64,000 nucleotides of DNA, taken from positions 496,001 through 560,000 of the forward strand of contig JAVXUO010001116.1 in assembly GCA_033065855.1 (NCBI GenBank), read 5' to 3'. The notes under the pieces were generated by a model. It searched no databases. It worked only from the letters and a program-made list of their open reading frames with translations, and was not told the origin of the DNA. Source of the DNA: Escallonia rubra. Its lineage: Eukaryota; Streptophyta; Magnoliopsida; Escalloniales; Escalloniaceae. Positions 659 to 33,053 of this stretch are shown piece by piece. Both the position numbers and the translations under genes were made by a program. Numbering within the stretch: position 1 is the first letter of the stretch; every line of letters starts with the position of its first letter.

Positions 659-731
<73 letters not shown>

Positions 732-735: not shown

Positions 736-739
736 GATC

Positions 740-3720: not shown

Positions 3721-3760
3721 CAGCAAGAGCCCATCGTCGACCAGTTGGAAGCAGCTTCAG

Positions 3761-6299: not shown

Positions 6300-6864
6300 G
6301 CCGGGTTAACTTATGTCCAACCCAGAAGTGTGCTCAAGGAAAAGTTAAGCCCGCTCGGTATAAGAAATAAACCCACAAACTTATTTTTGGCCGATATGAG
6401 GTATAAATCTTAACAGTCGAATTGCCCGCGTCTCTCTCTCTCTAATGAAACTTAATTGCCTGGACAGTTCAAATGTAATCGCAATTAACAAGAATAACAT
6501 AACTCAATAGAAAATTAAATTTTAGATTTAAATACAACAGTCGTACGATGCAATAGAAGCATGAAAATACATCTATGTATAGCTTTGGCTTTCAGGAGAT
6601 GAGAAACCCTTGGACAGATGAAACTAGTGCGCTTGGAAATTTGGAAGAATAGTAAGGTGAGCTTGGTGTGTCGGAGTAAAACTTACCTTGTAACTTCGCC
6701 ACTTAATACTTTATAGTGCAACATTCTCGCTGTCTTCCCAGGCAAGAGACCGAATCACATTAAATATTTGGTTCATATTTTATGTGTGACAGTTTTTATA
6801 TTTTATCATTTTCTTGTTGTGCTAATTGTATTTTCTATTGAATTTATCTTTAAATACAGTAGCA

Positions 6865-6927
<63 letters not shown>
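6297..6927 (+). repeat. Right copy of ~640 bp direct repeat flanking MULE-1
   Basis: Same orientation and nearly the same sequence as 86-735, from ACGGCCGGGTT through to the (TA)n tract at about 6869-6926. Sequence beyond the TA tract differs between the copies. Confidence 0.85.
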
Positions 6928-11500: not shown

Positions 11501-12231
11501 ATTTGGGAAGAAAGGAAAATTGAGCCTTAGGTATGTGGGACCCTTTAAGATACTGAACATAGTTGGTTCTCTCGCCTACCGAGTAGCTTTGCCGCTAGAG
11601 TTAGCCAATGTCCATAATGTAGTCCACGTGTCTATGCTGAGGAAGTACATCCCGAACCCCACACATGTATTACAAATGGAACCCTTACAGATTAGAGAAG
11701 ACTTCACCTATATTGAACACTCGTTTCGGATCATGGATCACAAGGAGCAGACACTCCGAATTAAGAAGATTCATTTGGAAAAGGTCCTGTGGAGGAACCA
11801 TGTGGTTGAAGAGCCACGTGTGAATGCGAAGACGAAGTCAGAAGCAAATACCCTCACCTATTTCAATCCTGAGGTACGCGAAATTTGGAGGACCAAATTC
11901 TTAAAAAGGAGGGGAGAATCTAATACCCCGAAACATTTTTTTAATTATTTTTTTCGGGCTAAATTAAAAATTTTAGCAACGAACTTTTAATTAGCATTGA
12001 TATTGTCCGAGCAACATTTAGCGACGATTAGAGTAGCGGGGTTTTGTAACACCTGTAAATTTTTTCCTAGCACATAAAATTATCGAAAATAATTACTTTG
12101 GGCCTTTTCGTAATAAAAAAATGTTTTGGGTAGACCTCGTATAACTATCAAAATTTGAGAGGAGGGGGGGGGGGGTTGTTAATTTTCAACCTAGGTTTGT
12201 TTATATATATATATATATATATATACATATA
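8581..12231 (+). mobile_element. Ty3/gypsy chromovirus pol fossil (Tekay/Del-like), broken
   Basis: Remains of an LTR retrotransposon. In order: a protease motif (LFDSGATNSF near 8605), reverse transcriptase (about 8909-9800, with [11 protein letters not shown] and [11 protein letters not shown]), RNase H (about 9830-10370, with SDAFHKGLGCVL), integrase (about 10650-11300, with WVVVDRLTKCAHFLPVR) and a C-terminal segment (about 11388-11900, with [18 protein letters not shown]). A purine-rich tract near 11909 precedes a probable 3' LTR start near 11925. gag and the 5' LTR are absent. The element is old and inactive, with many breaks. The giant MULE at 12232 lies in its LTR, which probably resumes at 28110 and again after the hAT element. 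Confidence 0.85.
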
Positions 12232-13285
12232 GGGGGCCGATCAGGATCGACCGGGGGATAATATCCACCCAACCGCAACACTTTGTTGCGGTTGGGTATC
12301 ATTGCCTTTTTACACCCACCCCCTCACCCACCGCCAACCACAACAAAGTGTTGCGGTTGGGTATCATTGCCTTTTTTTTTCTTTTCCTTCAACTTTTTGT
12401 GGCCCCCACCCCCCCACCCCCACCCCCAACCGTCCTTTACCCCAAACCGCAACAAAGTGTTGCGGTTCCCCCCTTCCCCTGCCTGCCACGTGGCATGCGG
12501 TCCCCCCAGTCCCCCTTCCCTACCTATCACGTGGCATGCGGGCGGTCCCCCCTTCCCCTGCCTGCCACGTGGCATGCGGTCCCCCCAGCCCCCCCTTCCA
12601 TGCCTGCCACGTGGCCCCCATGCGGTCCCCCTACCCAAACCGCAACAAGGTGTTGCGGTCCCCCCCCAATCCGTGACGCATTGTTGCGGTCCCCCCCCTC
12701 CCACGTGCCCCTTTCCCCCCTGCCACGTGCCCCTCTTTGCGGTTCCCCCTCGTCCTTTTTTCTGTCTTCTTTTTTTTTGAATTTTCCGTCTTTATAAGCC
12801 TTTCTCCCCGAACCATTTCTTCTACTCCCCATCATCTTTACCAACTCTCTTCATACTCCATATCTCACCTACATAATCTCCACAACAATACAAACAAAAA
12901 AAAATTTACGCTTGAAGATCGGTGGATAGACCGCTAGAAGATCGGTGAATTTTTCTTTAAATATATCAAGTTAAAACAAGTAAGTATTTTGAATTTTCTT
13001 ACAATTCAATGTTAATTTCAAATTGTTCGTACCAATGGATTGTTTAAATTGTGGTATGCTTAAATTGTTCTTACCATAGTCTAAAATTTGTGTTTTTTGA
13101 GAGTTTGAAATTAGGGATTGAATTAGCGTTTATTAGCGAATATTCATTCGAAGTCCAAAAATAGTCATTGTAGACTCAAATCGAAGATAACGAAAATTCA
13201 AATTGAACGAAACAAAAATCAGATCAATCGGAGATCGGATGAGCGAATTTTTAGGGCTTCAAAATTAGGTTTATACAAATCAGGG
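12232..13285 (+). repeat. MULE-2 left outer TIR: palindromes and G-box repeats
   Basis: Four palindromes of the form CCGCAACACTTTGTTGCGG, some with an AAG centre, lie at about 12271, 12336, 12445 and 12638. Between 12480 and 12620 are tandem units of about 55-60 bp, each with TGCCACGTGGCATGCGGTCC, which contains the palindromic G-box CACGTG. The rest is C-rich, then AT-rich from about 12840. Proline-rich open frames here are by-products of the C-rich DNA and are not annotated. The right arm (27064-28100) is the inverted match. Confidence 0.88.
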
Positions 13286-13619
13286 TATTACATTGGGTTA
13301 ATTTCAAAACTGTCCCCTGAGGTTTACACGTTTTTGCACTTTGCCCCCCCGTGTTTACAACTTTTGCAATAATGTCCCTCGAGGTTGACAAAACCGTTGC
13401 AAACAGCTCCAAAATTGGACGTCCGTCCAATTTTGGGCGTTAAGTCGTCATGTGCACAGCACATGCCGTTTTGGCATGGGCAAATCGGTCAATTCCCTTA
13501 CCAAAGCCCTCTGAAAACCCTAAACCCCATTACCCACCTATCTATCTCCTCTCTCTTCCTCTCTGCGGCAGCAGGCCCTAATCGGGCAACGCCTCTCCCA
13601 TCTCCGGCGTCCCCATTGC

Positions 13620-13735
13620 TGGCCACGTTCCTTACCGGCAATGAAGGCCAGAAGGCAATGAAGGCCACGTTCCTCTCTGCAGGCAGCAATGAAGGCAATG
13701 AAGGCCACGTTCCTCACCGGCAATCGGGCAGAGCT
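13620..13735. repeat. Short tandem repeat block in Pack-MULE
   Basis: Repeated words GGCCACGTTCCT and GGCAATGAAGGC occur three to four times over ~115 bp between the captured gene fragment and the left end. Origin unknown; possibly a second captured piece. Confidence 0.6.
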
Positions 13736-13828
13736 ATGCTCGTTCTTACGTTTATGTGCATTCCGATATCGCTCATCTGGACCTACACAGGGTGTATTTT
13801 CGCTAGCTGTGGACAGGACTTGGAAATA

Positions 13829-14236
13829 TTAACCCAAGCTGGAACCTATGCCCTGTGGTTGATCGACGGTGAGGTTAGACGGAAAGATGATCTTCATGTG
13901 GGTAGCCTTACTGTCGACGAGGTGCGAAGGGATGTCGAACTCGTCGAGCATGCAGAGAGAGATGGCGCCGCCGTAGGGCTTGGCGGCAGCAGGGTTGCGC
14001 TCGAAGAGAAGGGTCTCCACGCCGCCCCTCGCGAGGGATTCGGCGGTAAAAGATCCGGCGGGGCCCCCGCCGATGACAGCAACCCGCAGCTTCCGGCCGC
14101 CTAGTTTTGGACGGGGGTTTGATTTGGCGGCGACTATGAGCCTGCTCGGTTTTCTGAGCAGCTTTAGCGAGGCTGGTGAGGTTTTAATGGTGCGTGTGAA
14201 GGAGTGGAGAGGGTGGGGTTGGGATTGGGCGGCCAT
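13829..14236 (-). pseudogene. CHLP: Captured N-terminal fragment of chloroplast geranylgeranyl diphosphate reductase
   Basis: The 135-residue open frame opens with a Ser/Arg/Lys-rich, acid-poor leader (MAAQSQPHPLHSFTRTIK) like a chloroplast transit peptide. It continues with the FAD-binding Rossmann fold of geranylgeranyl reductase: LRVAVIGGGPAGSFTAESLA, then GGVETLLFER and KPYGGAISLCMLDEFDIPSH, ending around KIIFPSNLTVDQ. The full enzyme is roughly 450-470 residues and reduces geranylgeranyl groups to phytyl groups for chlorophyll and tocopherol. Only the first quarter is here, so it cannot be an active enzyme. The upstream segment to about 14300 resembles a 5'UTR, so promoter-proximal host DNA may also have been captured. 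Residues differ at several family-conserved places (for example KPYGG for KPCGG), suggesting decay or an old capture. Confidence 0.85.
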
Positions 14237-14682
14237 TTTTAGTGATGGGTTTTCTTGGTTAGCTCAGGTTTTGGATTTATGGGGATGATGAAAGACAGTA
14301 GTAGTGGAGTGTGGAATGAAGATGGTGGGTTTTATGGGTGATTGATTATATTAAGGGTTTATGTTTCTTTACTTTAGACAAGTGGGGAGTAAAAATTTAA
14401 GGTTTTCTTGAACATTTCTGGACTTCTTTCTGTACAGAACGAGAGAGAAGAAGAGTGGGGAAGAAGAGGTAGGGGATTGACCGATTTGCCCATGCCAAAA
14501 CGGCATGTGCTGTGCACATGACGACTTAACGCCCAAAATTGGACGGACGTCCAATTTTGGAGCTGTTTGCAACGGTTTTGTCAACCTCAAGGGACATTAT
14601 TGCAAAAGTTGTAAACACGGGGGGCAAAGTGCAAAAACGTGTAAACCTCAGGGGATAGTTTTGTAATTAACCCTATTACATT

Positions 14683-16860
14683 TATAGATTCCAAAATAGC
14701 GATTTTTAGGGCGTCAAAATTTGAATTTTTCACGAATTTATAAAAAATAGCTAGAGCTAGATTTTGCCAAAGTACAAAAAAGATACCCTAGTTATGTTTA
14801 AAAGATCTATATCAGGGAAATATTTCAGATTTTTCCAAAGACTGGAAAGGGGTCAACTGATACGGGGAACCTTGTAACTTCGCAGTGTAATTTAAAATAT
14901 CAAGCAAGCGCGATTTCATGCGAAACTTTTATGAGAACCCTAGGATGTTGGGAAGTTCCATTTCCCCGGAATTTGCGCCATTCCGAAGTCGTTAGCTATT
15001 TTTTTGGCCGAACGGGCTTTTAAGCACTCGATCCGGACACCGGTTTGGGATTTTTGGGCGAAAAATCTCGAAAAATACTTTTTAGATCAAGAATGAATTC
15101 ACGAAGCTTAAAATAGCATTTCAAAGCACTTTTGAGATTTTTCGATGCCAGGGGCATTTCGGTAATTTGCCACCCTGAGAGGGGTATTTTTGTAATTCTA
15201 CAATGTTAAGTTTTTCAAACGACTTTTTAGTCCAAAAATGTAAGTAAAACACCTGAAAGGTTGTGTTGAAGCTGATTTGGGGGCGTTAGGGTGATAATGA
15301 ATCCCCAGGGGCATTTCGATAATTTGCCGCTCATCGGCGGTATTTCGGTAATTTTTCTGTCAAAATTTTTCGGGATGGCCTTTAGTTCGAGAAGGGGTAT
15401 AAAACACCCGAAAAGTTATTTTAAAGTTGTTCTGAGATTCTTCCAAAGACTGGAAATGGGTCAAATGATACGGGGAACCTTGTAACTTTGTAATGTAATT
15501 TAAAATATCAAGCACGCGCAATTTCGCGCAAAACTTTTATGAGAACCCTAGGATGTTGGGAAGTTCCATTTTCCTGGAATTTGTGCCATTCTGAAGTCGT
15601 TAGCTATTTTTTTGGCCGAACGGGCTTTTAAGCGCTCGATCCGGACACCAGTTCGGGATTTTTGGACGAAACTTTTGTAAAATGCTTTTTAGATCAAGAA
15701 TGAATTCAGGAAGCTTAAAATAGCATTTTAAAGCACTTTTGAGATTTTCTGAAGCCATGGGCATTTTGGTAATTTGCCACCCCGAGAGGGGTGTTTTGGT
15801 AATTTTCCCGAGTCTCGTTTTTCGCAAGGACTTCTTAGTCCAGAAATGTAAGTAAAACACATGAAATGTTATTTTGAAGCTGATTGAGGGGCGTAATTGT
15901 CGCTAAAGGTGAAAACTTAATTAGACAGTTTTTCACGAATTTATAAAACATAGCTAGAGCTAGATTTTGCCAAAGTACAAAAAAGAGACCCTAGTTATTT
16001 TTTGAAGATCTATATCAGGGAAAAATTTCAGAGTTTTCGAAAGACTGGAAATGGGTTAACTGATATGCGAAACCTTGTAAGTTTGTAGTGTAATTTAAAA
16101 TATCAAGCTAGCGAAACTTTTATGAGAACCCTAGGATGTTGGGAAGTTCCACCCCCCAGGAATTCGGGCCATTCCGAAGTCGTTAGCTATTTTTTTGGCC
16201 GAACGGGCTTTTAAGCGCTCGATCTGGACACCGATTCAGGATTTTTGGGCAAAACTTTTGTAAAATACTTTTTAGATCAAGAATGAATTCAGGAAGCTTA
16301 AAATAGCATTTTAAAGCACTTTTGAGATTTTCTGAAGCCAGGGGGCATTTTGGTAATTTGCCACCCCTAGAGGGGTGTTTTGGTAATTTTCCCGAGTCTC
16401 GTTTTTCGCAAGGACTTCTTAGTCCAGAAATGTAAGTAAAACACCTGAAATATTGTTTTGAAGCTGATTGCGAGGCGTTAGGGTGATAATGAATCCCCGG
16501 GGGCATTTCGATAATTTGTCGCTCAGCGGGGGTATTTTGGTAATTTAACATTGTAAAATTTTCCGACTTAATTTTAGTTCGGGAAGGGGTGTAAGGCACC
16601 CGGAAAGTTATTTTTTCTAGTTGTTCTGAGATGTTTGTTGGGGCGATGGCTGTCAGGGGGTATTTTGCATAAGTTGGGGGTGTTTTGGTAACTTTCCCCT
16701 TTAAAATACCCTGAGGAAATATTTGGTAAATAATTGACGTAATACATTTAAAAAGTGGTTTTAAAGCGGTTTTGTGGTGTTGGTGGTGTAGCGGCCATCG
16801 GGGGGTATATTGGTAAATTGCCACGTTGGCTCTAAATTTTAGGGAAGTAGAGTAATTAAG
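14683..16860. repeat. MULE-2 left inner arm: ~600 bp LTR-like tandem units
   Basis: Three tandem units of roughly 600 bp, marked by AAAGACTGGAAA at about 14837, 15445 and 16041. Each contains GAACCCTAGGATGTTGGGAA, GAAGTCGTTAGCTATTTTTT and GGCATTT(C/T)GGTAATTTGCC. The right arm carries two such units inverted. Parts match the chromovirus LTR at 56400-56850 (CGATAGCTATTTT, GAGCGCTCGGTCTGGACAC and the repeated GGTAATTTTACC words), so the arm appears to contain LTR-derived sequence. No coding function; open frames here are by-products. Confidence 0.8.
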
Positions 16861-17026
16861 CGTTCGGAGCGGTGGGAAGTGAGGAATTGTTTTAATACAT
16901 TGAAATAATGAGATAATGACTATTGCTAACGCGTTGGTAAGATAGGTTTAAGATCCAGTTATATTTTTGGAATGTAAATATTATGGACGCTAAGTTGGTT
17001 TACGATTATATTTTGTTCTTAGAGAT

Positions 17027-19821
17027 ATGGATTTCAACCCCGGACCTCATGATACATCAATCATATACGATGACGATGACCACGTCGCGAGGTACGTATT
17101 TGACGGTGTCGATAGGGGTGTTTTGGAAACAATTCAAAGCACAAGTCACCTCGGAGAATGGATACTGAACGAGGAATAAATACAAATATGACACCGTCAA
17201 AATTTATCTATGTTCACCGATTGCGGGATTTGGTCTCGGCACAACGATTGCCTTATATCCGCTCTAGTTGAATGATGGAGGAGCGAGACGAACTCATTTC
17301 ACTTCGGGTTTGGTGAAATGACTATTACATTAGAGGATGTCGGATTTATACTTAGAATCCCATGTCACGGCAAACCCATTACTTCGAGCAAAACGTCTGC
17401 ATCCATAGCGAAGATGGCTAGGCAGTATTTCCCGGGAATTCTGAGGGAAGCTCTTACGTCTAACGGCATCAAACTTAAATGGCTGAGAGAGCAGTACGGC
17501 GTGCTACCGGATGAATACACTCCTCATGATTTGGTGACGTATACGAAGGCATTCCTTCTGTATATTATTGAAGCCATATTACTTCCGACGCATTCGAAAA
17601 ACACGGTGCATCCGAAGTATATGGTGTTCTTGGAGGAGCTTGAGGAGGTATACTCGTATTCGTGGGGTTCAGCTATCCTCGCCCACCTATATCGAGCACT
17701 GCACAAAGCTACGAGAAAGGGTGCCAAGTCCATTGCCGCTTGCATCACTCTATTACAGGTTTGAACATTTATATTCTTGGTTGATGTGTCAATATATTCG
17801 TGATTAATTACTAATTTCATATAATGTTTGCATTCACAGGTTTGGTCTTATGAGAGGCTACCCACGGGTCGTCCACAGCCCCTAGATGATTCCGATGAGA
17901 CGTGGCCTAGGGTGTGGGCCTGGGGGCCTACGACCAAATGAACGAGGAGACGGGTAAACCCTCACCACCATCTACAGTTCTATCGAGGGGAACTAGAGAT
18001 ACTGTATGCATCCCAGGTGACGTGGCAGCCATATGGCAAGGTGATGCATCGGTTGGATGAGTGGTGTTGGCAACTTCTGGTGTCGTACATGCTGGCAGGT
18101 TTGGTTCGGGTGCCGCTTATTCACTTCGAAGTATGTGAGTTTCAGATGCCCGGTCGAGCTATGAAACAAGATGGCTGTCTATAAGGGATACCAAAACCCG
18201 CTATAGACATGTGGCCATACAGGAGTGGTCGAGGGCCAAAATTCGAGGTGCCTGATGCCTTGAATTTGTTGAGTGACGAGGTGCAATTCAAGGGCACGAG
18301 GGTGAATCGCCCTTCCCAGGTGAGGAAGTCATCGTATGCGCCACGTTAGGTCTATGACCAGTTCTGGGAATTGAACATTGTAAGTCATGCTAGTGTTGTT
18401 TCAATTTTTATTTGTGCACCTTATCGACCATGCCTGAAATGATGACGGTGATTTTTCTATGCATGTTTTTTAGGTTGACCAGGGCACTGAGGTGTTCAAG
18501 CAGCTGGAGCGGTTTGACTGGTATGTCGTGCATGCTCCTGACAGTCTCAAGAGCTCCATTGAGAGGTACAAAACTGATCTTCACAACTTTAGTGTGAAGT
18601 ACCGGGGTTACCAAGGGGAGCCGTCTAGTCGCTTGCCTCCTGACGCGTACGACTCTCAGCCCCAGAGTCAGGTGTGGGAGCCGTCTAGTCGCTTGCCTCC
18701 TGACGTGAACGACTCGGTGCCCCAGAGTGTGGTGTGGGAGCTGTCTAGTCGCTTGCCTCCTGACGCGTCTTTGTCCCAGAGGGAATTCTGGGAGCAGTCT
18801 AGTCGCTTGCCTCTTGACACGTACGACTCTCAGCGCCAAAGTCAGGTGACCCAAGTAGGAATCCAGGCCTCGCGCCCAAGCATCCGGTCGTATAAAGGAC
18901 GAGCGACAAAGCCATTGAGGCCGGACAAGCGGGATTGGATCGACCGGCACTACTTCGGGCCTGAGCCCATTGTTACAACAGACTTTTCTCTTGCGACATT
19001 CCTAGGTCATGAGGATATGAGAACGTTGGCGCCGGAGACAGATATTTCAAATTTTGTCATGAACGCTTACATAGATCTGCTCCGGAGTAGAGAGCTACGT
19101 TATAACCACTCTGAAGATTTTACGCTTAAAATGTATCCCACTTATTTTGTGGAATTAATGGTGACCAGCATGAGGGAATTCACAGAATAGAGGAGGCGAG
19201 GGGCAGGCAGGGGTAAGTGGAAACCATCTGGAAACGTGTTAGGCATGTTGAACTCGGAATATCAATGTCACGCTGCTCATGCGAACCTTATCATGATACC
19301 TTGTCATCGTGCAAACCATTGGTTCCTATTAGTTCTCCATCCAGCGAACAGAGCGGTCCACATATACGATAGCCTAAGGGAGGACGGACCTGGATGGTTG
19401 CTGGCACAGATGTACAGCGAGTACATCACTGCAGTGGTTAGTTTTTATTTTCTGACATTGGCTCATAGTATATTCTTTCTTCTTGTTACATAGGCTTGAT
19501 AACCCTTTTTATTGTTGGATGCATACTACTATCCTCTCGCTAGCGTGCCAAGATTATTCGGGGGAATCCATCATCAGGAATTCGACGGTAGAGCCTTGGA
19601 CGGTCGTGATGATACAGGACCGACCAAAGCAATATAACAGTCACGATTGCGGGATATACGTCCTCAAGTACATGGACTACATTGCTCGCTCGGAGGTGCT
19701 AAAATATACGTCGTGGATCAGGAAGGATGCCTTGACGTTTAGGTATAGGATAGCCTGGGAGCTGAAAAAGAATGAAGCTAAACGCCTTCATTACCATTAT
19801 CATAATCAATATCCTAACTAG
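17027..19821 (+). pseudogene. PMD-Ulp1 fusion gene of MULE-2 (stop-ridden)
   Basis: The start is homologous to the MULE-1 gene (MDFNPGPHDTSIIYDDDDHV at 17027). Probable exons: 17027-17759 (PMD: SETNSFHFGFGEMTITLEDV, SWGSAILAHLYRALHKA, donor CAG/GTTTG), 17840-18378 (VWSYERLPTG, PLIHFEVCEFQMPGRAMKQ), 18474-19436, and 19494-19821. After the PMD comes a linker with four ~20-residue repeats of SSRLPPD (18614-18850). A C48/Ulp1 cysteine-protease domain follows, with the His of NHWFLLVLH, the Asp of HIYDSL, the Gln of RPKQYN and the Cys of SHDCGIYVLKYMDYI all present. Ulp1-type proteases cleave SUMO or ubiquitin-like conjugates. Seven in-frame stops occur, all explicable as CAA, CAG or CGA with C changed to T. 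The last two exons do not join in phase as drawn, so that boundary is uncertain. Confidence 0.87.
18614..18850 (+). repeat. In-frame 57-63 bp coding repeat in PMD-Ulp1 linker
   Basis: Four tandem copies of a unit encoding about PSSRLPPD-x3-DS-x-PQS-x-VWE link the PMD and Ulp1 domains. The unit starts GAGCCGTCTAGTCGCTTGCC. The copies differ by indels in multiples of three, which suggests the frame was under selection when they expanded. Confidence 0.88.
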
Positions 19822-22015
19822 CGTGGCTAAGGTGCAATGAGCAAAGAGCACTGCACAAAAAAGAAATGTACAACATTTTTCTCAAGCTAAGCATTGGGCG
19901 CTAAAGTGTGCGCGAATAGGCCTTTCATAGGAAAATCTCAAAAAATACCGAGTCTCGTTTTTTGCCGAAATTCATAGAAACGGGTTAAGTAGCGTGCATG
20001 AGGTGCAATGAGCGAAAAAAAACTGACAAAAAAAATTACAACATTTTTCGCAAGCTAAGCATTGGGCGCTAAAGTGTGCTCGAATAGGCCCTTCATAGGA
20101 GAACCTGAAAAAATAATTTGTCACGTTTTTTGCCGAAATTCATAGAAATGGGTTAAGTAGCGTGCATGAGGTGCAATGAGCGGAAAAAAACTGACAAAAA
20201 AAATTACAACATTTTTCGCAAGCTAGGCATTAGGCGCTAAAGTGTGCCCGAATAGGCCCTTCATAGGAAAACCTGAAAAAATAATTTGTCTCGTTTTTTG
20301 CCGAAATTCATAGAAACGGGTTAAGTAGCGTGCATGAAGTGAATTGAGTGAAAAAAAAAGTGACAAAAAAAATTACAACATTTTTTGCAAGCTAAGCATT
20401 GGGCGCTATAAAGTGTGCGCGAATAGGCCTTTCATAGGTAAATCCCAAAAAATACCGAGTCCCGTTTTTTGCCGAAATTCATAGAAACGGGTTAAGTAGC
20501 GTGCATGAGGTGAAATGAGCGAAAAAAAAAACTGACAAAAAAAATTACAACATTTTTCGCAAGCTAAGCAGTGGGCGCTAAAATGTGCCCGAATAGGCCA
20601 TTCATAGGAAAACCTGAAAAAATAATTTGTCTCGTTTTTTGCCGAAATTCATAGAAATGGGCTAAGTAGCGTGCATGAGGTGCAATGAGCGAAAAAAAAC
20701 TAACAAAAAAAATTACAACATTTTTCGCAAGCTAAGCATTGGGCGCTAAAGTGTGCCCGAATAGGCCCTTCATAGGAAAACCTGAAAAAATAATTTGTCT
20801 CGTTTTTTGCCGAAATTCATAGAAACGGGTTAAGTAGCGTGCATGAGGTGAATTCAGCGAAAAAAAACTGACAAAAAAAATTACAACATTTTTCGCAAGA
20901 TAAGCATTTGGCACTAAAGTATGCGCGAATAGACCTTTCATAGGAAAATTCCAAAAAATACCGAGTCTCGTTTTTTGCCGAAATTCATAGAAACGGGTTA
21001 AGTAGCGTGCATGAGGTGCAATGAGCGAAAAAAAAAATCACAAAAAAAATTACAACATTTTTCGCAAGCTAAGCAGTGGGCGCTAAAGTGTGCCCGAATA
21101 GGCCATTCATAGGAAAACCTGAAAAAATAATTTGTCTCGTTTTTTGCCGAAATTCATAGAAATGGGTTAAGTAGCGTGCATGAGGTGCAATGAGCGGAAA
21201 AAAACTGACAAAAAAAATTACAACATTTTTCGCAATCTAAGCATTGGGCGCTAGGAAAATCCCAAAAAATAATTTGTCTCGTTTTTTTGCCGAAATTCAT
21301 AGAAATGGGCTTAGTAGCGTGCATGAGGTGCAATGAGTGAAAAAAAACTGACAAAAAAAATTACAACATTTTTCACAAGCTAAGCATTGGGCGCTAAAGT
21401 GTGCCCGAATAAGCCCTTCATAGAAAAACCCAAAAAATTGTTTGTCTTGATTTTTGCCGAAATTCATAGAAATGGGCTAATTAGCGTGCCTAAGGTATAT
21501 TGAGCAAAAAAAAAATTGACAAAAAAATATACAAGATTTCTCAGAAGCTATGAATTAGGCGATAAAGTGTGCGCGAATACGCCCTTCATAGGAAAAACAA
21601 AAAAAAAAAATTTGTCTCGATTTTCACCGAAATTCATAGAAATGGGCTACTTAGCGTGCCTAAGGTATATTGAGCAAAAAAAAAACTGACAAAAAAATAT
21701 ACAAGATTTTTCGGAAGCTATGAATTGAGCGATAAAGTGTGCGCGAATAGGCGCTTCATAGGAAAACCAAAGAAATTATTTGTTTATGAATTTCGCCGAA
21801 ATTGATAAAAATGGGCTACCTAGCGTGCCTACAGTGCAATGAGCAAAAAAGGAAGTGATAAAAAAAATTACAAGATTTTTCGTAAGTTATGAATTGGGCG
21901 CTAAAGTGTGCGCGAATAGACCCTTCATAGGAAAACCAAAGAAATTATTTGTCTCGATTTTTTCCGAAATTCATAGAAATGAGCTAATTAGCGTGCCTAA
22001 GGTGCAATTTAAAAA
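19820..22015 (+). repeat. ~169 bp satellite-like tandem array in MULE-2
   Basis: Units begin TAGCGTGCATGAGGTGCAAT. Starts lie near 19820, 19991, 20159, 20327, 20498, 20668, 20836, 21004, 21173, 21316, 21483, 21653, 21822 and 21990, giving 13 full units of 167-171 bp (one of 143 bp) and a partial one. Each has ACAAAAAAAATTACAACATT, AAGTGTGCCCGAATAGGCC and TTTTTTGCCGAAATTCATAG. Central units are very similar, while the first and the last four are more diverged. The array begins at the stop codon of the PMD-Ulp1 gene and ends just before the 3' end of the convergent transposase, so it separates the two gene ends. Open frames within it are artefacts of the repeat. Confidence 0.95.
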
Positions 22016-22065
22016 AAACTGACAAGAATCCACAAACCAAATCACAGATTTAAACATTATAAAAG

Positions 22066-22133
22066 TTCAATTTAAACAACTGAAACATTAATTTAAACAA
22101 CTGAAACATTAATTTAAACAACTGAAACATTAA
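22066..22133. repeat. Three 21 bp direct repeats downstream of transposase
   Basis: Three copies of AATTTAAACAACTGAAACAT lie directly after the transposase stop codon, in its presumed 3'UTR. Confidence 0.85.
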
Positions 22134-22135
22134 CC

Positions 22136-25100
22136 CTAACACTCTTCCTCATCATCGTCCTCCTCGACCATACTGCCAGGTTCGATACCTAGCACTTTAT
22201 AATGGTTTCTCTTGTCATGATCAGTCATCTTATTACACAACGCACACTTTCGTAATTTTTTTTGACCCGTTGCTTCTTCAATCGGATTCTTCATACGTAT
22301 TGCACGTTTTCGCCCTTTTGTTTGAGAAATAATTGGATCAAAAATATCGTCGTCCTCCCCTTGCAGCTAGTGCTGTCAATGACTGGCTGTGAAGCTCGAG
22401 TGAATCTACCGGCTGGAATCGCCCGAGTAGTCGGATTGTCCCGACTTTCTGGTAATGCCATCCTAAAATGTGCAATATTAGCCTTATCCCGTGCGGCTGC
22501 TTCAACTTGATACCTGTACTCATCAAATGTTGACGCTGCATCCAATGATACACCGTACATGATGTTACAAAGGTGATTATATCGCAGCGTCTCAGATTGC
22601 TCGAAATCAACTGAAACATTGGGCACGTAAGGAATGTGACCGTGGACTCTATTGGCTTCCTTCGTCCACCGATCCAAGATATACTCTGGAGGGATTTCAC
22701 GAGCATTCTTGGCGCTAAAAAACTCAACGCGTGTCGACAGAGTATACCTTTATGCTCAAATAGTTGACAGTTGCAATTAACAACTCCGGTCTCCATACAC
22801 GCTGCTACGGTAAAATGTCTTCTGTTCTTCGGAGCCGACGAAGAGCACGGATTGGCAAAATTCGTCACATTTGTCAAAGCATAAACCTTGAGATATCTGT
22901 TGCATAGCTCGTGCAACTTTGTCATGCTATATTGATTCGACCTTAGTAGTTCATCTTGAAACTGTCTAAACATTTCCTTGGTATAGACTTGAGCCGCATG
23001 AGCCTCCAAAGGTGAAAAAACTACTATTTGTCTTTCTCTGTAAACTGTAGCTGCGTCGGCTTCTCTCTCAAGGAAAAATTGCCTGTCAAGGGCTTTCTGC
23101 ATCTCTAGTACGAACTCTGTTATACTTGAAGAAGAGCGTACGTACCCATCAAAGAATGCATTCATACCTTCGTTTCTCGAGGTCCTAGTCATTCCGGTGG
23201 CAAATTTGTTTTTGGTGTAGGCACCGATCCACTGTGTCCTGATCTCATACAACGCTTGCAACCATTCATGACTGTGCAAATAGTAGTCATCCATTAACTT
23301 CGCCCACCTCTCCTCGAACACGTCTACCGTCAACGATTTCTTCACACATGTATTAAAGTCACTCTTAAATGTCGGATGGTTTGCATATACATTGTAAAGC
23401 CGTTCGGGATATTTGTTGCTTATGTGCCATGTGCACAGGCCATGGTGAGTATCTGGAAGGACTTTAGCGATTGCATTTTTCATTGCCAGATCTTGGTCGG
23501 TGATGATGGTTTTTTACGGAATACGATACATTGCTTCAAGCCACGTTTCAAATAACCACGTAAATGACTCCTCCGTCTCATCCCTAAGCAGGGCAAAGCC
23601 AAACAAGATTGACTGATAGTGGTGGTTCATCCTGGTGAACGGCGCAAAAGGCATAGAGTACTTATTTGTGCGGTATGTGGTGTCAAACGTCACAACATCG
23701 CCAAAATTTTGGTAAGCAGCTCTAGAACGGGCATCCGACCAAAATATATTAGTAATGCGGTTCTCGTCATCCAGTTGGAGACTATAGAAAAAGCCAGAAT
23801 TTTGACTCTGAAGGCGCCTGAAGATATCAAGTGTAGCTTGAGAATCACTCCTACAGGAAGACTCTCTCCTCTGAGCACGAAGTTCATTTCGGAGGTCTAC
23901 TTCATTGAAGCTCAACTTGTCAACCCCCCCCAGCCTGGCTTGAGAAAACCCCCATCATTCTAGAAGGTGGAATTTTAGCCTCGGCCATTGTAAATATCAG
24001 TTGTCTGTGTGCCGCGCTTATTTCTCGGTGCTGATGAATTTGACCAATCTTACTAGGGGTCATCAACTGATGGTTATGGCTCAACTCCACTCCCGTCACA
24101 ACCCAATGATTTTCATTTTTCCGGTGTACTGCATACACATGGGCCTTGCAGCCGGTACCCGGAAATGTGTCCCGTTTTCTTTGTCTTGATGGCCCTTCGT
24201 CACTGATCCGAAGGGTTAATTTTACGCTACACCCTCTACTTAGGGGTCAGTTGCACCCAGCACCCTAGGATTTTAAAATTGGCACCCAACACCAAATGAC
24301 GGTCAAAATGACCTTTGACCAGATGTCCGTTAATTTTTTGGGGGCAAAATGGTCTGTTCACCCGTGGAATCCACCTGCCATCCTAGTCAGCTACTATAAA
24401 CACCACGTCATCATTTTCCCTCAACAGCCATAACTCTCTTCCCCCCCCCCCCCCACTCTCACGTTCACTGATTAACCCATTTCCCCAGTTTATCACCATA
24501 GCCAACCACTGCATCCCATCACCACCTGTTACATCCGCAAACCACCACCAATCTCTGCCCTCCCCCTTTACCCCCTAGCATAACCAACCACCATCTCCCC
24601 TCTTCCCACCACTGCCACCCACTACAAATTGGCCCACCAAGTGCCGACCTAGATTTGCAGATCCCCACCACTCCGCTGCAAATCCTGCAGTAGCAATCAA
24701 CTCATTTGATCACCAAATCTGTTGCCGAAGACCACGAGCTAGCATGCTAACCAAGGTCAGCCCCCGAAGAGCCCCATTGGCCTTCGCTGCCATCATCATG
24801 TGCCATTCGTTGACCCATCGCGGTCGCCATCATCGATTAATCACCGGATGAAGACTTTTTTTCTTACAGGCGTGCACTTTCGGCACCGGCAGAGAGACCC
24901 GGCAGTTGAGTGGCGGCAAGGCAGTGTCGAGGTGGTTGACCGGTGAAGAGAAAAAGAGAGACCCAGCACTGGTTACTCAGCTGATGGCCAGTGGTCCATG
25001 GATCCGTCGATAGATGGCGTAGGAGAGGAAAATGCCGTTGCAGGCGTCGGAGGCCGGGGCCGGAGCTTGGGCCGCTGTCGCGTTCTGGGCCTTCGTGTTT

Positions 25101-25660
25101 TACTCGTTAAACTTGAGTTCTTCTTCCCTCTAATGACAGCCACGGTATGAGTCTGTATGTGTGTGGGTGTGCGTGAAGAGGGAAATGACGTGGAGTGCCA
25201 ATTGAGACATGTAAAGCTGACTGTGGTGACATGTAAGCTTTGGTTGGTTGATAAGACCTTTTTGCCCCTAAAATACTAACAGTCGTTTGGTCAACATATA
25301 TTTTGACCGTCATTTGGTGATGGAAGTCAAGATTTTTGAATTGTTTGGTGTTGGGTGCCAATTTTAAAATCCTGGGGTACTGGGTGCAACTGACCCCTAA
25401 GTATAGGGTGTAGCGTAAAATTAACCCTTGATCCGAACAACCGGGGGTACATGCGGTGCTCCTCTATGACACTCAAATAGTCTTCCACAAATTTGATTTG
25501 TATTCGCCCATTTTCTAGTCATCTTAATTCTAATACCGAAACCTATCATTTTCGAATATACTCTATAGTATGCTTCAACTTCGTCCAGTGTTTGAAAAAC
25601 TTGACCCAAGTAAGGTGGATCAGAATCTTCACAAAAATTATTTCCTCCAGTTGCATCCAT
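22136..25660 (-). pseudogene. FAR1/MURA-type transposase of MULE-2, split by an insertion
   Basis: Transposase of the giant element, homologous to the one in MULE-1. It starts at 25660 (MDATGGNNFCEDSDPPYLGQ). The FAR1 zinc-binding domain is interrupted at 25437 by the nested MULE and resumes at 24202 (TGCKAHVYAVHRKNENHW, VELSHNHQLMTPSKIGQIHQ). The catalytic domain shows DVVTFDTTYRTNKYSMPFAP and TIITDQDLAMKNAIAKVLP. The SWIM finger reads NCNCQLFEHKGILCRHALSF near 22750. The C-terminus has a basic stretch and a short Cys/His knuckle (CALCNKMTDHDKRNHY), then an acidic tail ending at 22136. Lesions besides the insertion: a frame slip in the poly-C run at 23923-23930, an in-frame TAA at 23514-23516, and a frame slip in a T run near 22716. 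It cannot make active protein from this copy. Confidence 0.9.
24213..25427. mobile_element. Small MULE-type element nested in the transposase
   Basis: Inverted ends of about 100 bp start GGGTTAATTTTACGCTACAC; the right end is the near-exact complement at 25427. The flanks CTGATCCGAA (24203-24212) and TTGATCCGAA (25428-25437) form a 10 bp target duplication with one transition. The first ten bases of its ends match those of the element at 13295-14673. The interior (24400-25130) is C-rich then mixed. A short minus-to-plus unrelated frame at 25032 encodes about 33 residues with a hydrophobic stretch (AAVAFWAFVFYSL) that may be a captured gene start, but I do not recognise it. No transposase. Confidence 0.9.
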
Positions 25661-25757
25661 ATTTATACTGAAATCTAAAAAATAAAAATTATATCATTTT
25701 CCACAAGTCATAGAATTAAATAAAATATGTATAAAAATTATTTCCTCCAGTTGTGTG

Positions 25758-27054
25758 GAATATTTTGACAGAAAAATTACCGAAATACCCCCGGTGGGCG
25801 GCAAATTACCGAAATGCCCCTGGGGGTTCATTATCACCCTAACGCCCCAAATCAGCTTCAAAATAGCCTTTTAGGTGTTTTACTTAGGTTTCTGGACTAA
25901 AAAGTCATTTGGAAAACCTAAAATTGTAGAATTACCAAAATACCCCTCTCGGGGTGGCAAATTACTGAAATGCCCCATGGCATCGGAAAATCTCAAAAGT
26001 GCTTTGAAATGCTATTTTAAGCTTCCTGAATTCATTCTTGATCTAAAAAGTATATTTCGGGAATTTTCGTCGAAAAATCCCGAATCGGTGTCCGGATCGA
26101 GCGCTTAACAGCCCGTTCGGCCAAAAAAATAGCTAACGACTTCGGAATGGCGCAAAATCTGGGGAAATGGAACTTCCCAACATCCTAGGCTTCTCATAAA
26201 ATTTTCGCGCAAAATTGCGCGTGCTTCATATTTTAAATTACAGTGCAAAGTTACAAGGTTCCCCGTATCAGTTGACCCCTTTCCAGTCTTTGGAAGAATC
26301 TCAGAACAACTTTAAAATAACTTTTTCGGGTGTCTTACACCCTTTCCCGAACTAAAGGCCATCCTGGAAAATTTTGACAGAAAAATTACCGAAATACCCC
26401 CGATGAGCGGCAAATTACCGAAATGCCCCCAGGGATTCATTATCACCCTAACGCCCCTAAATCAGCTTCAACACAACCTTTCAGGTATTTTACTTACATT
26501 TCTGGACTAAAAAGTCGTTTGAAAAACTTAACATTGTAGAATTACCAAAATACCCCTCTTGGGGTGGCAAATTACCGAAATGCCCCCTGGCATCGGAAAA
26601 TCTCAAAAGTACTTTGAAATGATATTTTAAGCTTTCTGAATTCATTCTTGATTTAAAAAGTATTTTTTGGGATTTTTGCCGAAAAATCCCGAACAGGTAT
26701 CCGGATCGAGCGCTTAAAAGCCTGCTCGGCCAAAAAAATAGCTAACAACTTCGGAATGGCGCAAATTCGGGGGAAATGGAACTTCCCAACATCCTAGGGT
26801 TCTCATAAAAGTTTCGCATGAAATCGCGCTTGCTTGATATTTTAAATTACACTACGAAGTTACAAGGTTCCCGTATCAGTTGACCCCTTTCCAGTCATTG
26901 GAAAAATCTGAAATTTTTTCCTGATATAAATCTTTTAAACATAACTAGGGTTTTTTTTTTGTACTTTGGCAAAATCTAGCTCTAGCTATTTTTTATAAAT
27001 TCGTGAAAAATCCAAATTTTGACGCCCTAAAAAATTGCTATTTTGGAATCTATA
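25758..27054. repeat. MULE-2 right inner arm: two LTR-like ~600 bp units
   Basis: Inverted counterpart of 14683-16860, with two units marked by TTTCCAGTC at about 26280 and 26888. The left arm has three, so the arms differ by unit number. Similarity to the chromovirus LTR at 56400-56850 is the same as for the left arm. Confidence 0.8.
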
Positions 27055-27063
27055 AATGTAATA

Positions 27064-28100
27064 CCCTGATTTGTATAAACCTAATTTTGACGCCCTAAAA
27101 AACCGCTCATCCGATCTCCGATTGATCTGATTTTTGTTTCGTTCAATTTGAATTTTCGTTATCTTCGATTTGAGTTTACAATGACTATTTTTGGACTTCG
27201 AATGAATATTCGCTAATAAACGCTAGTTCAATCCCTAATTTCAAACTCTCAAAAACCATGAATTTTAGACTATGGTAAGAACAATTTAAGCATAACACAA
27301 TTTAAACAATCCATTGGTACGAACAATTTGAAATTAACATTGAATTGTAAGAAAATTCAAAATACTTACTTGTTTTAACTTGATATATTTAAAGAAAAAT
27401 CCACCGATCTTCTAGCGGTCTATCCACCGATCTTCTAGCGTAATTTTTGTTTGTTTGTATTGTTGTGGAGATTATGTAGGTGAGATATGGAGTATGAAGA
27501 GAGGTGGTAAAGATGATGGGGAGTAGAAGAAATGGTTCGGGGACAAGGGCTTATAAAGACGGAAAATTCAAAAAAAGAGAAGAAAGAAGACAGAAAAAAG
27601 GACGAGGGGGAACCGCAAAGAGGGGCACGTGGCAGGGGGACCGCAACAATGCGTCACGGATTGGGGGGGGGGATCGCAACACCTTGTTGCGGTTTGGGCA
27701 AGGGGGGACCGTAGGGGGGCCACGTGGCAGGCAGGGAAGGGGGGCTGGGGGGACCGCATGCCACGTGGCAGGCAGGGAAGGGGGACTGGGGGGACCACCC
27801 GCATGCCATATGGCAGGCAGGGAAGTGGGGACTGGGGGGACCGCATGCCACGTGGCAGGTAGGGGAAGGGGGGGGAACCGCAACACTTTGTTGCGGTTTG
27901 GGGTAAAGGACGCTTGGGGGGTGGGGGCCACAAAGGGTTGGAAGAAGAGAAAAAAAAGGCAATGATACCCAACCGCAACACTTTGTTGCGGTTGGCGGGG
28001 GTGGGTGGGTGGGTGGGTGTAAAAAGGCAATGATACCCAACCGTAACAAAGTGTTGCGGTTGGGTGGATATTATCCCCCGGTCGATCCTGATCGGCCCCC
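27064..28100 (-). repeat. MULE-2 right outer TIR
   Basis: Inverted match of 12232-13285. Four CCGCAACACTTTGTTGCGG-type palindromes lie at about 27673, 27876, 27971 and 28039, and the tandem TGCCACGTGGCA G-box units at 27720-27865. The empty site of the nested Pack-MULE (TATTACATT complement) is kept at 27055-27063, just inside this arm. Confidence 0.9.
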
Positions 28101-29218
28101 ATATATATATATATATAGACACACACACACACACACACACTAATATAGGTCAGCCGACCCTAATTTTCTCTACATCTCTGGAAACGACAGAGGCAGAGAA
28201 AAGGCGTGAATAAATGATTTTTCTGGCTAAATTTTTCAGTAAGCTTTAATTGATATACATGATTGTTCTATACACATACATATATATAGGTGGCTATGGA
28301 TATATATGAATGGGTCTCGATTTTGGGAAGAATTGTTAAAGGGGTGGCCGCGGGTGATGGCTGCCGTAGGAGGGATGTTTTTGTGCCTTGTGGTTTGAGG
28401 ATGTGGCAGCCATGCTTACCGAGGGAAAGAGAGACACTAGGGCAGTCAAGGGGCTGCTGTGAGACAGAGGGTAAGCAGCCATCAGAGACTGCTGAATTTA
28501 AAGAGAGAAAATGGTTATAAGGGACTGTGGGTGGTATAGAGAGAGAAACGGTCGCTACCGACATGAACGGTGTGGTTTGGACGAGAAGACAATCCTACTT
28601 CTGTGTGATAGTGGGTGTAGATGTGTTGTGAGTGATCATGTCTGAGTGTGAGAATGGATGAGTGTGTGTGTTTTGTGTGTGGAGCAGAAGAACACCACTG
28701 CCGTGAGGTTAGTGGGTTCAAAGGCAAGTCTGCCGTGAGGCAGTTGGAGGGGTGTGCATGAGTGTGTGATTGTGTGGATTCATGGGTGTGTATGAGAGAG
28801 GGAGAGATATTAAAGATGCAGCCATGGGTATTGTGTGTGTGTGAGTGTGATTTGTGTGTGCTCGTATGTGTTGTGTGCATGCGTTAGTGTGTGCTGTGTG
28901 TGTATATGTGTGAGTGTGTGAAGCTGCCTAGGCAACTATGTGTGTGTGTGTGAGTTATGTGCTCCTGTGTGTGTGTGCGCGTGTACTATGGGTTTGGTGT
29001 GTGTATATAAGTGTGTGTACTATGTGTTTGGTGTGCGGGTGTGTGTATATAAGTGTGTGTGTGTACTGTGTGTTTGGTGTGCGGGTGTGTGTATATAAGT
29101 GTGTGTGTGTGTGTACTGTGTGTTTGATGTGCAGGTGTGTGTATATAAGTGTGAGTGTGTTGAGTGAATAACCTTGTAAATTGTAAGGTTATGAGTGGTC
29201 TACGAGGGAGTTAGACTG
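28101..29218. other. LTR-like flank with GT-rich microsatellite tract
   Basis: No gene. From 28590 to 29170 the sequence is dominated by GTGTGT words with variant ~60 bp units (TGTGTTTGGTGTGCGGGTGT followed by TATATAAGTG) repeated near 28990-29150. The start (GTCAGCCGACCCTAATTTTC, then GACAGAGGCAGAG) and a CACTGCCGTGAGG segment resemble the leader parts of the chromovirus-type LTRs at 41842-44697 and 49109-58113. This is probably the continuation of the LTR interrupted at 12232. Confidence 0.5.
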
Positions 29219-30707: not shown

Positions 30708-30782
30708 ATTTCTCATCCATCAACACCAAATGCAAGCGTGGGAGTCTCTGGACTAGCTTGCTTTGGAATTTTTTTTTATTAC

Positions 30783-33053
30783 TGTTCATAACCTATTCTG
30801 GACCGCACCCCGGGGCCCGCTAAGAGATCCTAGTGGCACGACACGTCACCCATTTGGCGGTCAACATCGCTCAACAAGATTGCTCGGTCAAAGTGCTCCG
30901 CGCCTTAGGCATTCAAACGGCGATCGAAAGTGCATTTCCCCCCCGAGGGGTCGGCCATCCCCCTAAGAAGGGGGTCGGCCACCCACTTTGTAAGGGGGTC
31001 GGCCACCCCCCTAAGAAGGGGGTCGGCCACCCCCCTAAGAAGGGGGTCGGCCACCCACTTTGTAAGGGGGTCGGCCACCCCCCTAAGGAGGGGGTCGGCC
31101 ACCCCAAGGGGGTCGGCCTCCATTTCCCTGCGAAGGGGGGAACTTGACGAGTGGCACTGACTTCGCGCTCCAACAACACTCAGACGTTATCTTCAGTAGC
31201 GCGACGCTCTGTCGCAGGCTCAATCAAAGTGACTGGGCTCCGGCCTTCGCAGCGGGACGGGTTCGCAACCATGAAGCCCTCGTCGGCTCAATCAAAGTGA
31301 CGGGGCTCCGGCCCTCGCGGCGGGACGGGCTCGCAACCATGAAGCCCTCGCCGGCTCAATCAGACTGACGGGGCTCCGGCCCTCACGGCGGGACGGGCTT
31401 GCAACCATGAAGCCCTCGCCGGCTCAATCAAACTCGCGGCGGGACGGGCTCGCAACCATGAAGCCCTCGTCGGCTCAATCAAAGTGACGGGGCTCCGGCC
31501 CTCGCGGCGGGACGGGCTCACAACCATGAAGCCCTCGCCGGCTCAATCAGACTGACGGGGCTCCGGCCCTCACGGCGGGACGGGCTTGCAACCATGAAGC
31601 CCTCACCGGCTCAATCAAACTCGCGGCGGGACGGGCTCACAACCATGAACCCCTCGCCGGCTCAATCAAACTGACGGGGCTCCGGCCCTCGCGGTGGGAC
31701 GGGCTCGCAACCATGAAGCCCTCGCCGGCTCAATCAAACCGACGGGCTCCGGCCCTCGCAGGCACAATCAACCGGGGGCTCCGGCCCTCGCCAGCACAAT
31801 CAACCGACGGGCTCCGGCCCTCGCAGGCACAATCAACCGGGGGCTCCGGCCCTCGCCAGCACAATCAACCGACGGGCTCTGGCCCTCGCGGGCATAATCA
31901 ACCGGAGGCTCCGGCCCTCGCCAGCACAATCAACCGACGGGCTCCGGCCATCGCAGGCATAATCAACCGGGGGCTCCGGCCCTCGCCAGCACAATCAACC
32001 GACGGGCTCCGGCCATCGCAGGCATAATCAACCGGGGGCTCCGGCCCTCGCCAGCACAATCAACCGACGGGCTCTGGCCCTCGCGGGCACAATCAACCGG
32101 GGGCTCCGGCCCTCGCCAGCACAATCAACCGACGGGCTCCGGCCCTCGCGGACACAATCAACCGGAGGCTCCGGCCTTCGCAACAAGGATGGGCTTACAA
32201 CCCTAAGGCCATCGCCGGCACAATCACCCGACGGACTCACGGGGGGCTCCGCTCGTAGTGCTCCGGCACGAGGACCCCTCGTCACGGACCCTAAGCATAG
32301 CATGTGCACTCATGTTATCATTGATCATCGACACCACCAGGGCAATGAACCGCGAGTCACTGCGGGACGGGAGCAGGTCCTCGGAAGGCATCGTGTCCGG
32401 CACGCCTAGCAGTTGGCTGCAGGGGCAACCCTCACCGCTGCCAGGATCTCGGCGCGTCTCTTGACGCATCTCGTGGGATTCAGCAAGGGCTTGGACTGGA
32501 GGCTGGGGCAACGGGCTACTCTGACCATGCTACCGCAGTGTGGTCAGTCTCCTCAGACAGGCAGAGGGACGCTGCAAGGGCAGGGCGGCACGAACCCGGG
32601 GACTGGCAATCCGACGGACAATCAATACTGCGGGACCCTCTACGGCGACGTGTCGCTCCCGGAGGACGACACGTGTCGGCTGATGACACGCGCGCATTTG
32701 TGCCTATATATAGTGGACTTTGGAGCTTATTCAAGGACTTCTCTCTCATTTCAACATTTCACTTTCTCTCTCTAAAGCTCATTCTCTCTGGCTTTCTAGT
32801 GAGAGAAAGACATTTGGATCCCTGACATCGGACTCTTGACGCTGCACCCTTGACACGGACTGTCAACCGCTGGCCCTGTTCGTCGTCACCCTGCCTGCGC
32901 GGTTCTGCCAGCCCTCGCGATCTGTCTGGGGAGCCTTGCTCTCAGCCCTTGCTCCATCCTTGCTGTCTCCCACTTTGCCTACTTGGAAGCCAACGCAGAC
33001 TGCATCCTTTGTGGCACCTCACGTGGCATGCGAACCATCTTTCCTCGGCAACA
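30783..33053 (+). repeat. 5' LTR with minisatellite core
   Basis: In order: a block of GGGGGTCGGCCACCC repeats (about 30940-31130); ~69 bp units with GGCTCCGGCCCTCG and GACGGGCTCGCAACCATGAA (about 31200-31730); shorter 30-60 bp units with AGCACAATCAACCGACGGGC (to about 32180); a TATA box CTATATATAG at 32704 in a conventional U3/R setting; and the end CGGCAACA at 33053. The repeats produce open frames on both strands that are not genes. Confidence 0.9.
32704..32713 (+). promoter_or_regulatory. LTR TATA box
   Basis: CTATATATAG in the 5' LTR, followed about 35-60 bp later by a TC-rich stretch typical of a retrotransposon transcription start. The same motif occurs in the 3' LTR near 40663. Confidence 0.65.

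Follow-up and report, generated by a model that had tools for sequence, protein, structure and literature searches.

The window considered here is a 64,000-nucleotide stretch of the Escallonia rubra genome (contig JAVXUO010001116.1, positions 496,001 to 560,000 of the forward strand). Positions 12232-28100 of the window are a single Mutator-like element (MULE), a decayed copy of a family that has many copies in the genome. It holds two genes. One joins a plant mobile domain (PMD) to a Ulp1-type protease and lies on the plus strand, and the other is a transposase gene on the minus strand. Each adjoins one inverted arm and they converge on an internal tandem array (Table 1). These parts make up an autonomous-type MULE. 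A sequence-only reading of the window had described exact inverted ends, arms of more than 2 kb, PMD and protease on one strand and an array that separates the genes at their 3' ends, and all of these hold. The end at 12232 and the inverted end at 28100 are identical for their first 56 bp and nearly identical further in. Pairing gives inverted arms of about 2.3 kb (12214-13294 with 28117-27055 at 90%, 14674-15894 with 27063-25842 at 92%). The left arm is longer than the right because another transposon has inserted in it (13295-14673). Terminal inverted repeats of this kind are a feature of most MULEs. Domain profile searches place PMD at 17276-17764 (E 4e-36) and Peptidase_C48 at 19456-19821 (E 4e-10), both on the plus strand. 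The array has a unit of about 168 bp.

The same reading called a FAR1/SWIM transposase on the other strand, and this is confirmed too. MULE, SWIM and ZSWIM RNase H-like domains are found in the window at 22338-23954 on the minus strand, with PF10551 at 60.8 and 36.5 bits in pieces. FAR1 is seen in an uninterrupted relative; the corresponding part of the window copy is split by an insert. Two of ten transposase loci (L051 and L057) have uninterrupted frames. The L057 protein of 763 aa matches FAR1 (PF03101, 54.2 bits), MULE (PF10551, 113.9 bits), the ZSWIM RNase H-like domain (51.7 bits) and SWIM (PF04434, 25.2 bits). A FAR1/Jittery-type MULE is defined by a FAR1 DNA-binding domain together with MULE and SWIM, and the uninterrupted relative has all three. 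The MULE-type RNase H-like domain is present both there and in the window pieces.

Whether the PMD-Ulp1 gene belongs to the element is best judged from other copies. The genome searched was the host's own (566 Mb). First-look DNA searches gave 466 candidates for the 249-bp end, 1,148 for PMD-Ulp1 and 1,429 for the transposase, of which 40 each were scored; these are places and not counted copies. Elements were paired from facing ends within 20 kb using the ends alone. This gives eight large elements: the window copy, C1013 (10.3 kb), C2269 (13.8 kb), C2508 (17.6 kb), C1826 (13.0 kb), C2239 (14.4 kb), C1712 (13.7 kb) and C1019 (15.7 kb). All eight have PMD-Ulp1, array and transposase in the same order and orientations, C2239 being read from PMD exon 2 onward. 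The proposal of a multi-gene mobile system is borne out by this. The converse, that the PMD-Ulp1 gene came as a separate insertion with its own ends, is rejected because every one of these elements carries the gene. One can also imagine that the three parts met in the window through chance nesting. Nested inserts do occur in this copy, but the identical layout of all eight leaves such a scenario next to no probability and we count it as refuted. In a ninth end pair (C2581, 32.6 kb) the part that was read contains PMD-Ulp1 and the array. The ends of a tenth (C2370) are about 0.6 kb apart, which leaves no room for genes. Twelve other end loci have an end match alone and were read about 1.5 kb inward, too short to tell their gene content.

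The transposase side agrees. Ten transposase loci were taken with 1.5 kb of flank per side, and the array is on the 3' side of the transposase in every one. Ulp1 exon 4 is reached in six, and three stretches end within the array. The transposase copy in C1663 (L052) has no Ulp1 match in the roughly 0.9 kb read past its short array. This copy and the short pair C2370 are the ones that outwardly resemble what a separate insertion of the gene would leave. At least 12 of the 40 transposase matches have a PMD or Ulp1 match within 8 kb, among the matches listed. Taken with the selection results below, the PMD-Ulp1 gene is almost certainly an integral, selected part of the element.

Table 1. Features of the element in the window (positions in the window; TSD, target-site duplication)
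Feature	Position	Strand	Remark
TA microsatellite, left end, insertion target	12202..12231		repeat and end-flank reading
Left arm: terminal inverted repeat, subterminal repeats of about 600 bp, PMD-Ulp1 upstream region	12232..17026	+	
Foreign nested MULE-type element in left arm, with captured gene fragment, outside the family	13295..14673		9-bp TSD TATTACATT
PMD-Ulp1 exon 1, first half of PMD, stops in window copy	17027..17758	+	exon boundaries transferred from L046
PMD-Ulp1 exon 2, second half of PMD, about 93 bp shorter than other copies near 18287	17840..18379	+	
PMD-Ulp1 exon 3, repetitive linker and first half of C48 (triad His, Asp)	18474..19420	+	
Linker tandem repeats, 60 bp (20 aa), copy number differs among elements	18616..18848	+	
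PMD-Ulp1 exon 4, second half of C48 (Gln, Cys in RPKQYNSHDCGIY)	19494..19821	+	splice site inferred
Tandem array between gene 3' ends, 167-169-bp units, 13 counted in window copy	19815..22008		
Transposase main part: RNase H-like MULE domain, SWIM finger; stop 23514, breaks near 22740 and 23927	22136..24211	-	
Foreign nested element splitting the transposase gene	about 24212..25428		86-bp inverted repeats, TSD TGATCCGA
Transposase 5' part, start codon near 25660	25429..25660	-	
Right arm: transposase upstream region and terminal inverted repeat	25661..28100	-	
TA microsatellite, right end	28101..28118		

Insertion sites were examined at 30 end loci, and 28 complete ends remain after two internal partial matches (L032, L035) are excluded. 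Judged by eye, a TA run lies directly beside 26 of these, in a few cases with a single odd base, and a mixed TG/TA or CATA/TA repeat lies beside the other two (L011, L027). TA-run flanks are what the TAFT, MuTAnT and SaTar MULEs have, which insert in TA microsatellites (PMC4486113, PMC5907723). It is very probable from these flanks that the present family does so too. Both window ends and all 28 complete ends lie within microsatellites, so a target-site duplication of 8-11 bp is not distinguishable from the repeat.

Three exons of the PMD-Ulp1 gene are clear and a fourth is likely. If the last splice is as we assume, two of the 11 copies read (L046 and L048) are without a stop or frame break, and the other nine are broken by stops or a frame-breaking gap. 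The L046 protein would be 874 aa with that splice; PMD spans residues 72-421 (236.3 bits) and C48 spans 649-858 (PF02902, 68.3 bits). The C48 call does not depend on the splice, as single frames of L002 and L008 score 69.6 and 61.0 bits. Exons 3 and 4 were also tried as a single exon and this was dropped. L002, L005 and L008 are open through the segment between them, but L046, L048, L068 and L069 have an in-frame stop there, and copies differ by 4 bp in its length while the flanking parts stay in frame. We infer from this that the segment is an intron. The Ulp1 half aligns with SENP2 (E 9e-9), and the segments holding His, Asp, Gln and Cys line up. We take these four to be the catalytic residues, a His-Asp-Cys triad with an oxyanion Gln, and SUMO cleavage is putative. 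The triad is conserved in all 14 copies compared. A Ulp1 protein made on its own from exon 3 seems unlikely, because the first Met of that exon falls within the C48 region or close to where it starts. Structure prediction for the linker and Ulp1 gave no usable fold (mean predicted local distance difference test score of 35 over 3 sequences).

The PMD half has some likeness to another domain, DUF1985. In four translations PMD exon 1 scores 25.1-32.6 bits against DUF1985, below the cut-off of 35.1. In the genome search, a number of 256-aa frames whose length suits exon 1 reach 35-36 bits, solely when summed with their neighbours. The best DUF1985 match among the 150 genome places scored, L070 (C2826:101800-105400, 41.5 bits), also scores weakly for PMD (28 bits against a cut-off of 34.9). 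Since exon 1 weakly matches DUF1985 and L070 weakly matches PMD, the two domains look related.

Selection was measured as the ratio of nonsynonymous to synonymous substitution rates (dN/dS) between pairs whose compared part is stop-free, with bootstrap ranges. PMD exon 2 gives 0.29 (0.18-0.49, L046-L008) and 0.32 (0.16-0.57, L046-C1826), and PMD exon 1 gives 0.49 (0.30-0.87, L069-C2508). Two of three Ulp1 pairs give 0.53 (0.38-0.76, L008-C2239) and 0.57 (0.37-0.90, L002-C2239), and the linker gives 0.75 (0.48-1.22, L046-L008). Two further values deserve lower weight: 0.42 (0.28-0.60) for PMD exons 1 and 2 of L069-C2508, where two stops in C2508 exon 2 were skipped, and 0.51 over 11 mostly broken copies, which mixes living and dead lineages. 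The transposase of the two uninterrupted copies gives 0.80 (0.45-1.34), which is uninformative. These ratios indicate that the PMD half is under purifying selection. They indicate the same for Ulp1 over longer distances, on weaker evidence than for PMD, and that the linker and part of Ulp1 evolve faster. Because dN/dS is below 1 for PMD and, over longer distances, for Ulp1, the gene does not behave as a neutral passenger.

The array runs from the PMD-Ulp1 stop codon (19819-19821), which its first unit includes, to about 130 bp short of the stop codon of the transposase. It is present in all 16 stretches searched with 1-17 units, some arrays being cut by the stretch edge. Units are similar inside one element and up to 15% divergent among elements (C1712a, with one unit, is excluded). 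Distances between arrays follow distances between Ulp1 sequences (Mantel r 0.43, p 0.0002 for 15 elements; r 0.35, p 0.04 for 9; r 0.31, p 0.06 for 8). They are uncorrelated with PMD exon 1 (r 0.04, p 0.34) and with the transposase 3' part (r 0.13, p 0.20, 9 elements). Co-evolution of array and Ulp1 is possible. The Ulp1 half of C2239, C1712 and C2508 is 13-24% different from that of other elements. Divergence in the same comparison is about 4-7% for PMD exon 1 (C2239 left out) and, among whole elements, about 2-6% for the 3' part of the transposase. A Ulp1 half this diverged on an otherwise nearly uniform backbone points to exchange of the Ulp1 module between elements. The arms have their own repeated motif: the 8-mer TTTGGTAA is 11- to 21-fold over a first-order Markov expectation in all six elements examined.

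The window copy itself is a dead pseudo-element. In its transposase gene there are a stop, two frame breaks and the nested insert that divides it, and PMD-Ulp1 contains six stops and a deletion relative to other copies (Table 1). The sequence-only reading took all 15.9 kb as one element. It is one MULE, but about 2.6 kb of it is foreign, in two nested transposons. The one in the left arm has 207-bp inverted repeats that are 97% identical. Pfam matches to its captured fragment are FAD/NAD-binding, and the fragment resembles the N-terminus of a geranylgeranyl reductase. It is a Pack-MULE sitting within the arm of a MULE. The ends of the nested element that splits the transposase gene resemble its ends (GGGTTAATTT...).

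A second family is present in the window at about 730-6301. A FAR1-MULE-SWIM transposase (plus strand, 49% amino acid identity) is convergent there with a PMD gene (minus strand, 41% amino acid identity), and a TA run lies beside it on the left. We considered this a PMD-only family without Ulp1, and dropped the idea since a related copy in C1171 (L071, 84% DNA identity over 1.56 kb) continues beyond PMD into a Ulp1-like region. That region matches the linker and N-terminal Ulp1 of the first family at 25% identity (E 2e-12 when just these two sequences are compared). A Pfam search of the L071 stretch called no C48 in it. For the window copy, loss of Ulp1 and the array by deletion is the likelier history. 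As L071 runs on into a Ulp1-like region, the arrangement of transposase and PMD(-Ulp1) is probably older than the first family.

Some other repeats and PMD genes were seen along the way. A 630-bp stretch at 86-718 is repeated at 6296-6925 (97%), so the flank is duplicated on either side of the second-family element. Dozens of places in the PF10536 search for PMD share one score and an open frame of 468 aa, which looks like recent amplification of a PMD-bearing family, the one to which L071 belongs. Four adjacent PMD genes at C922:1278226-1296817 have open frames of 643-689 aa and score 373-384 bits, the best among the 112 of 5238 PMD candidates that were scored. They are perhaps host MAIL-type genes or another transposon class. 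Elsewhere in the window are two pairs of direct repeats. Positions 30779-33053 and 38722-41012 are 2.3-kb copies, 98.5% identical and rich in 65-68-bp tandem arrays, which could be a tandem duplication or resemble long terminal repeats (LTRs). Positions 50037-51480 and 54311-55755 are an LTR-like pair of 1.45 kb at 95% identity.

It is worth considering how this family relates to systems already described. MuDR of maize is alike in that two convergent genes start from inverted ends. Its transposase has a different DNA-binding domain, and no PMD or Ulp1 is known from mudrB. VANDAL elements with VANC/KIU (Kaonashi) are alike in that a MULE has a second gene with a DUF1985-like or PMD-like half and a Ulp1 half, and in having repeats both in the protein and in non-coding DNA. 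The Ulp1 domain of the second gene, which marks KIU, is present here in L046. However, VANDALs are reported to be without terminal inverted repeats (PMC13317346) and this family has long ones. It also has a FAR1-type transposase, a PMD above and a DUF1985 below the curated cut-off, and its copies sit in TA microsatellites. Ulp1 (ULP) genes are described from grapevine MULEs of the MuDR-like and Jittery-like kinds, from MULEs of melon and rice, and from CACTA elements (PMC2528002). The MULEs among these are like ours in placing a Ulp1/C48 gene downstream of the transposase, also in reverse orientation, but the sections on them mention no PMD fused to Ulp1. PMD was first described with a rice MULE, and its PMD-C form is reported as fused to MULE transposases in grasses and Amborella (PMC5418596; also PMC8616336). 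There the PMD belongs to the transposase, whereas in this family PMD and Ulp1 are joined in a gene of their own, which lies on the opposite strand and converges with the transposase gene. AutoMuTAnT, TAFT and SaTar share the insertion in TA runs. AutoMuTAnT also has a Jittery-like transposase and an end that begins GGGG, but it is described as 4.9 kb with one open reading frame, and that description mentions no second gene or array.

A literature text search found no paper that joins the plant mobile domain with Ulp1 or C48 in a MULE or transposon, though spelling variants can escape such a search. PMD genes and a Ulp1 gene are listed in one cassette, spelled 'plant-mobile domains', in PMC5240378. 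Ulp1 in MULEs and PMD in MULEs were each known before. Their fusion as a separate gene convergent with a FAR1-type transposase is a variant on a known kind.

What does the PMD-Ulp1 protein do? We argue, tentatively and at slightly less than an even chance, that it is an anti-silencing factor like VANC and Kaonashi. VANC proteins have DUF1985 and often variable repeat-bearing regions, bind non-coding tandem repeats of their own VANDAL and cause loss of DNA methylation there (PMC5735166, PMC10398659). A subset of VANC genes, Kaonashi, also carries Ulp1 and reportedly acts against silencing (PMC13317346). The sequence-only reading had suggested that the PMD-Ulp1 protein counters host silencing or modifies the transposase, and the analogy to VANC/Kaonashi makes that plausible. 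An anti-silencing use of PMD in MULEs was already speculated on by Ikeda et al. 2017 (PMC5418596). The parallels here are the weak DUF1985 score of PMD exon 1 (25-33 bits) and protein repeats alongside non-coding repeats. In this scenario the transposase would move the element into TA microsatellites. The PMD and linker half would bind the element's own repeated non-coding DNA in the arms, the array or both. The Ulp1 half would then strip SUMO from silencing proteins at the bound DNA, or act on them otherwise. The family would stay expressed as a result, as VANC/Kaonashi proteins achieve for VANDAL transposons. PMD-Ulp1 may thus work like the VANC/KIU system, yet the element is not classed as a VANDAL. 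The explanation as a whole, with an integral PMD-Ulp1 gene, a TA-targeting transposase and an anti-silencing protein, we would call evenly balanced.

Several observations weigh against anti-silencing. The PMD proteins MAIN and MAIL1 promote silencing in Arabidopsis, which is the opposite direction (PMC5418596, PMC7156037), and the Ulp1 domains of Kaonashi were judged unlikely to act on SUMO (PMC6117577). The family departs from VANDALs in two features: terminal inverted repeats are present and DUF1985 is under its cut-off. The 874-aa protein scores 25.1 bits for DUF1985 against the cut-off of 35.1, so its domain is PMD, and exon 1 of the second family scores just 12.7. The active-site Gln is conserved in just 10 of the 14 copies, and a further long open copy (L005) has Tyr in place of Cys. 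One of the three Ulp1 pairs, L046-L008, has a dN/dS of 0.77 (0.55-1.13), not distinguishable from 1. Array distance also tracks PMD exon 2 (r 0.26, p 0.01) and the linker (r 0.20, p 0.04), and physical linkage and recombination alone could explain the correlation of array with Ulp1. The 8-mer TTTGGTAA occurs once per element in gene intervals and never in the arrays. It was chosen post hoc from the window and the elements share ancestry, so that test is not independent and is a lead only.

The main alternative is that PMD-Ulp1 is a co-factor of transposition. It would de-SUMOylate or otherwise modify the transposase, or host repair or chromatin proteins at the integration site, and have no part in anti-silencing. 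As the convergent second gene it occupies the position that mudrB has in MuDR. Its C48 residues are mostly conserved and PMD appears to be under purifying selection, both of which such a role would also explain. The function of mudrB is described as poorly defined (PMC4486113), and Ulp1 genes recur in distant MULEs and CACTA elements (PMC2528002). However, Jittery and AutoMuTAnT are single-gene elements, which suggests such transposases generally need no partner (PMC4486113, PMC9569675), and a faster-evolving linker suits target recognition at least equally. We consider the co-factor role unlikely. A second question is whether the array is a binding target at all. The array and the convergent layout could serve RNA 3'-end formation or insulation and so prevent double-stranded RNA, whatever PMD-Ulp1 does. 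The position of the array, from one stop codon to about 130 bp from the other, and its presence in every stretch searched fit this. A simple terminator has no need of such widely varying unit numbers though, and we think this role possible while leaning toward doubt.

The remaining alternative is that PMD-Ulp1 is a captured passenger without function, gained by transduplication. MULEs often capture gene pieces, and the element nested in the left arm apparently did. That nine of the 11 copies read are broken, and that one Ulp1 pair is indistinguishable from neutral, would also be expected of a passenger. However, dN/dS is clearly below 1 for PMD and for two of the three Ulp1 pairs, so the selection test already largely contradicts this scenario. 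The gene is also kept in all eight large elements, and the second family has a PMD partner too although its transposase is just 49% identical. This alternative is very improbable.

If the anti-silencing reading is right it invites a larger one, which we offer as doubtful. FAR1-type TA-targeting MULEs may carry their own sequence-specific anti-silencing system, in which PMD-Ulp1 reads the arm or array repeats and lineages swap the Ulp1 module for specificity. It would have been assembled separately from VANC/Kaonashi, out of PMD and not DUF1985. At the very least, the family is a concrete test case. It has many candidate copies, some of them stop-free, two natural Ulp1 types on a near-identical backbone, and a related second family. 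Should anti-silencing prove true, Ulp1 would gain a testable role in MULEs, where a 2026 review describes its precise function as unknown (PMC13317346). It would also mean that two transposon lineages reached the same weapon from related domains.

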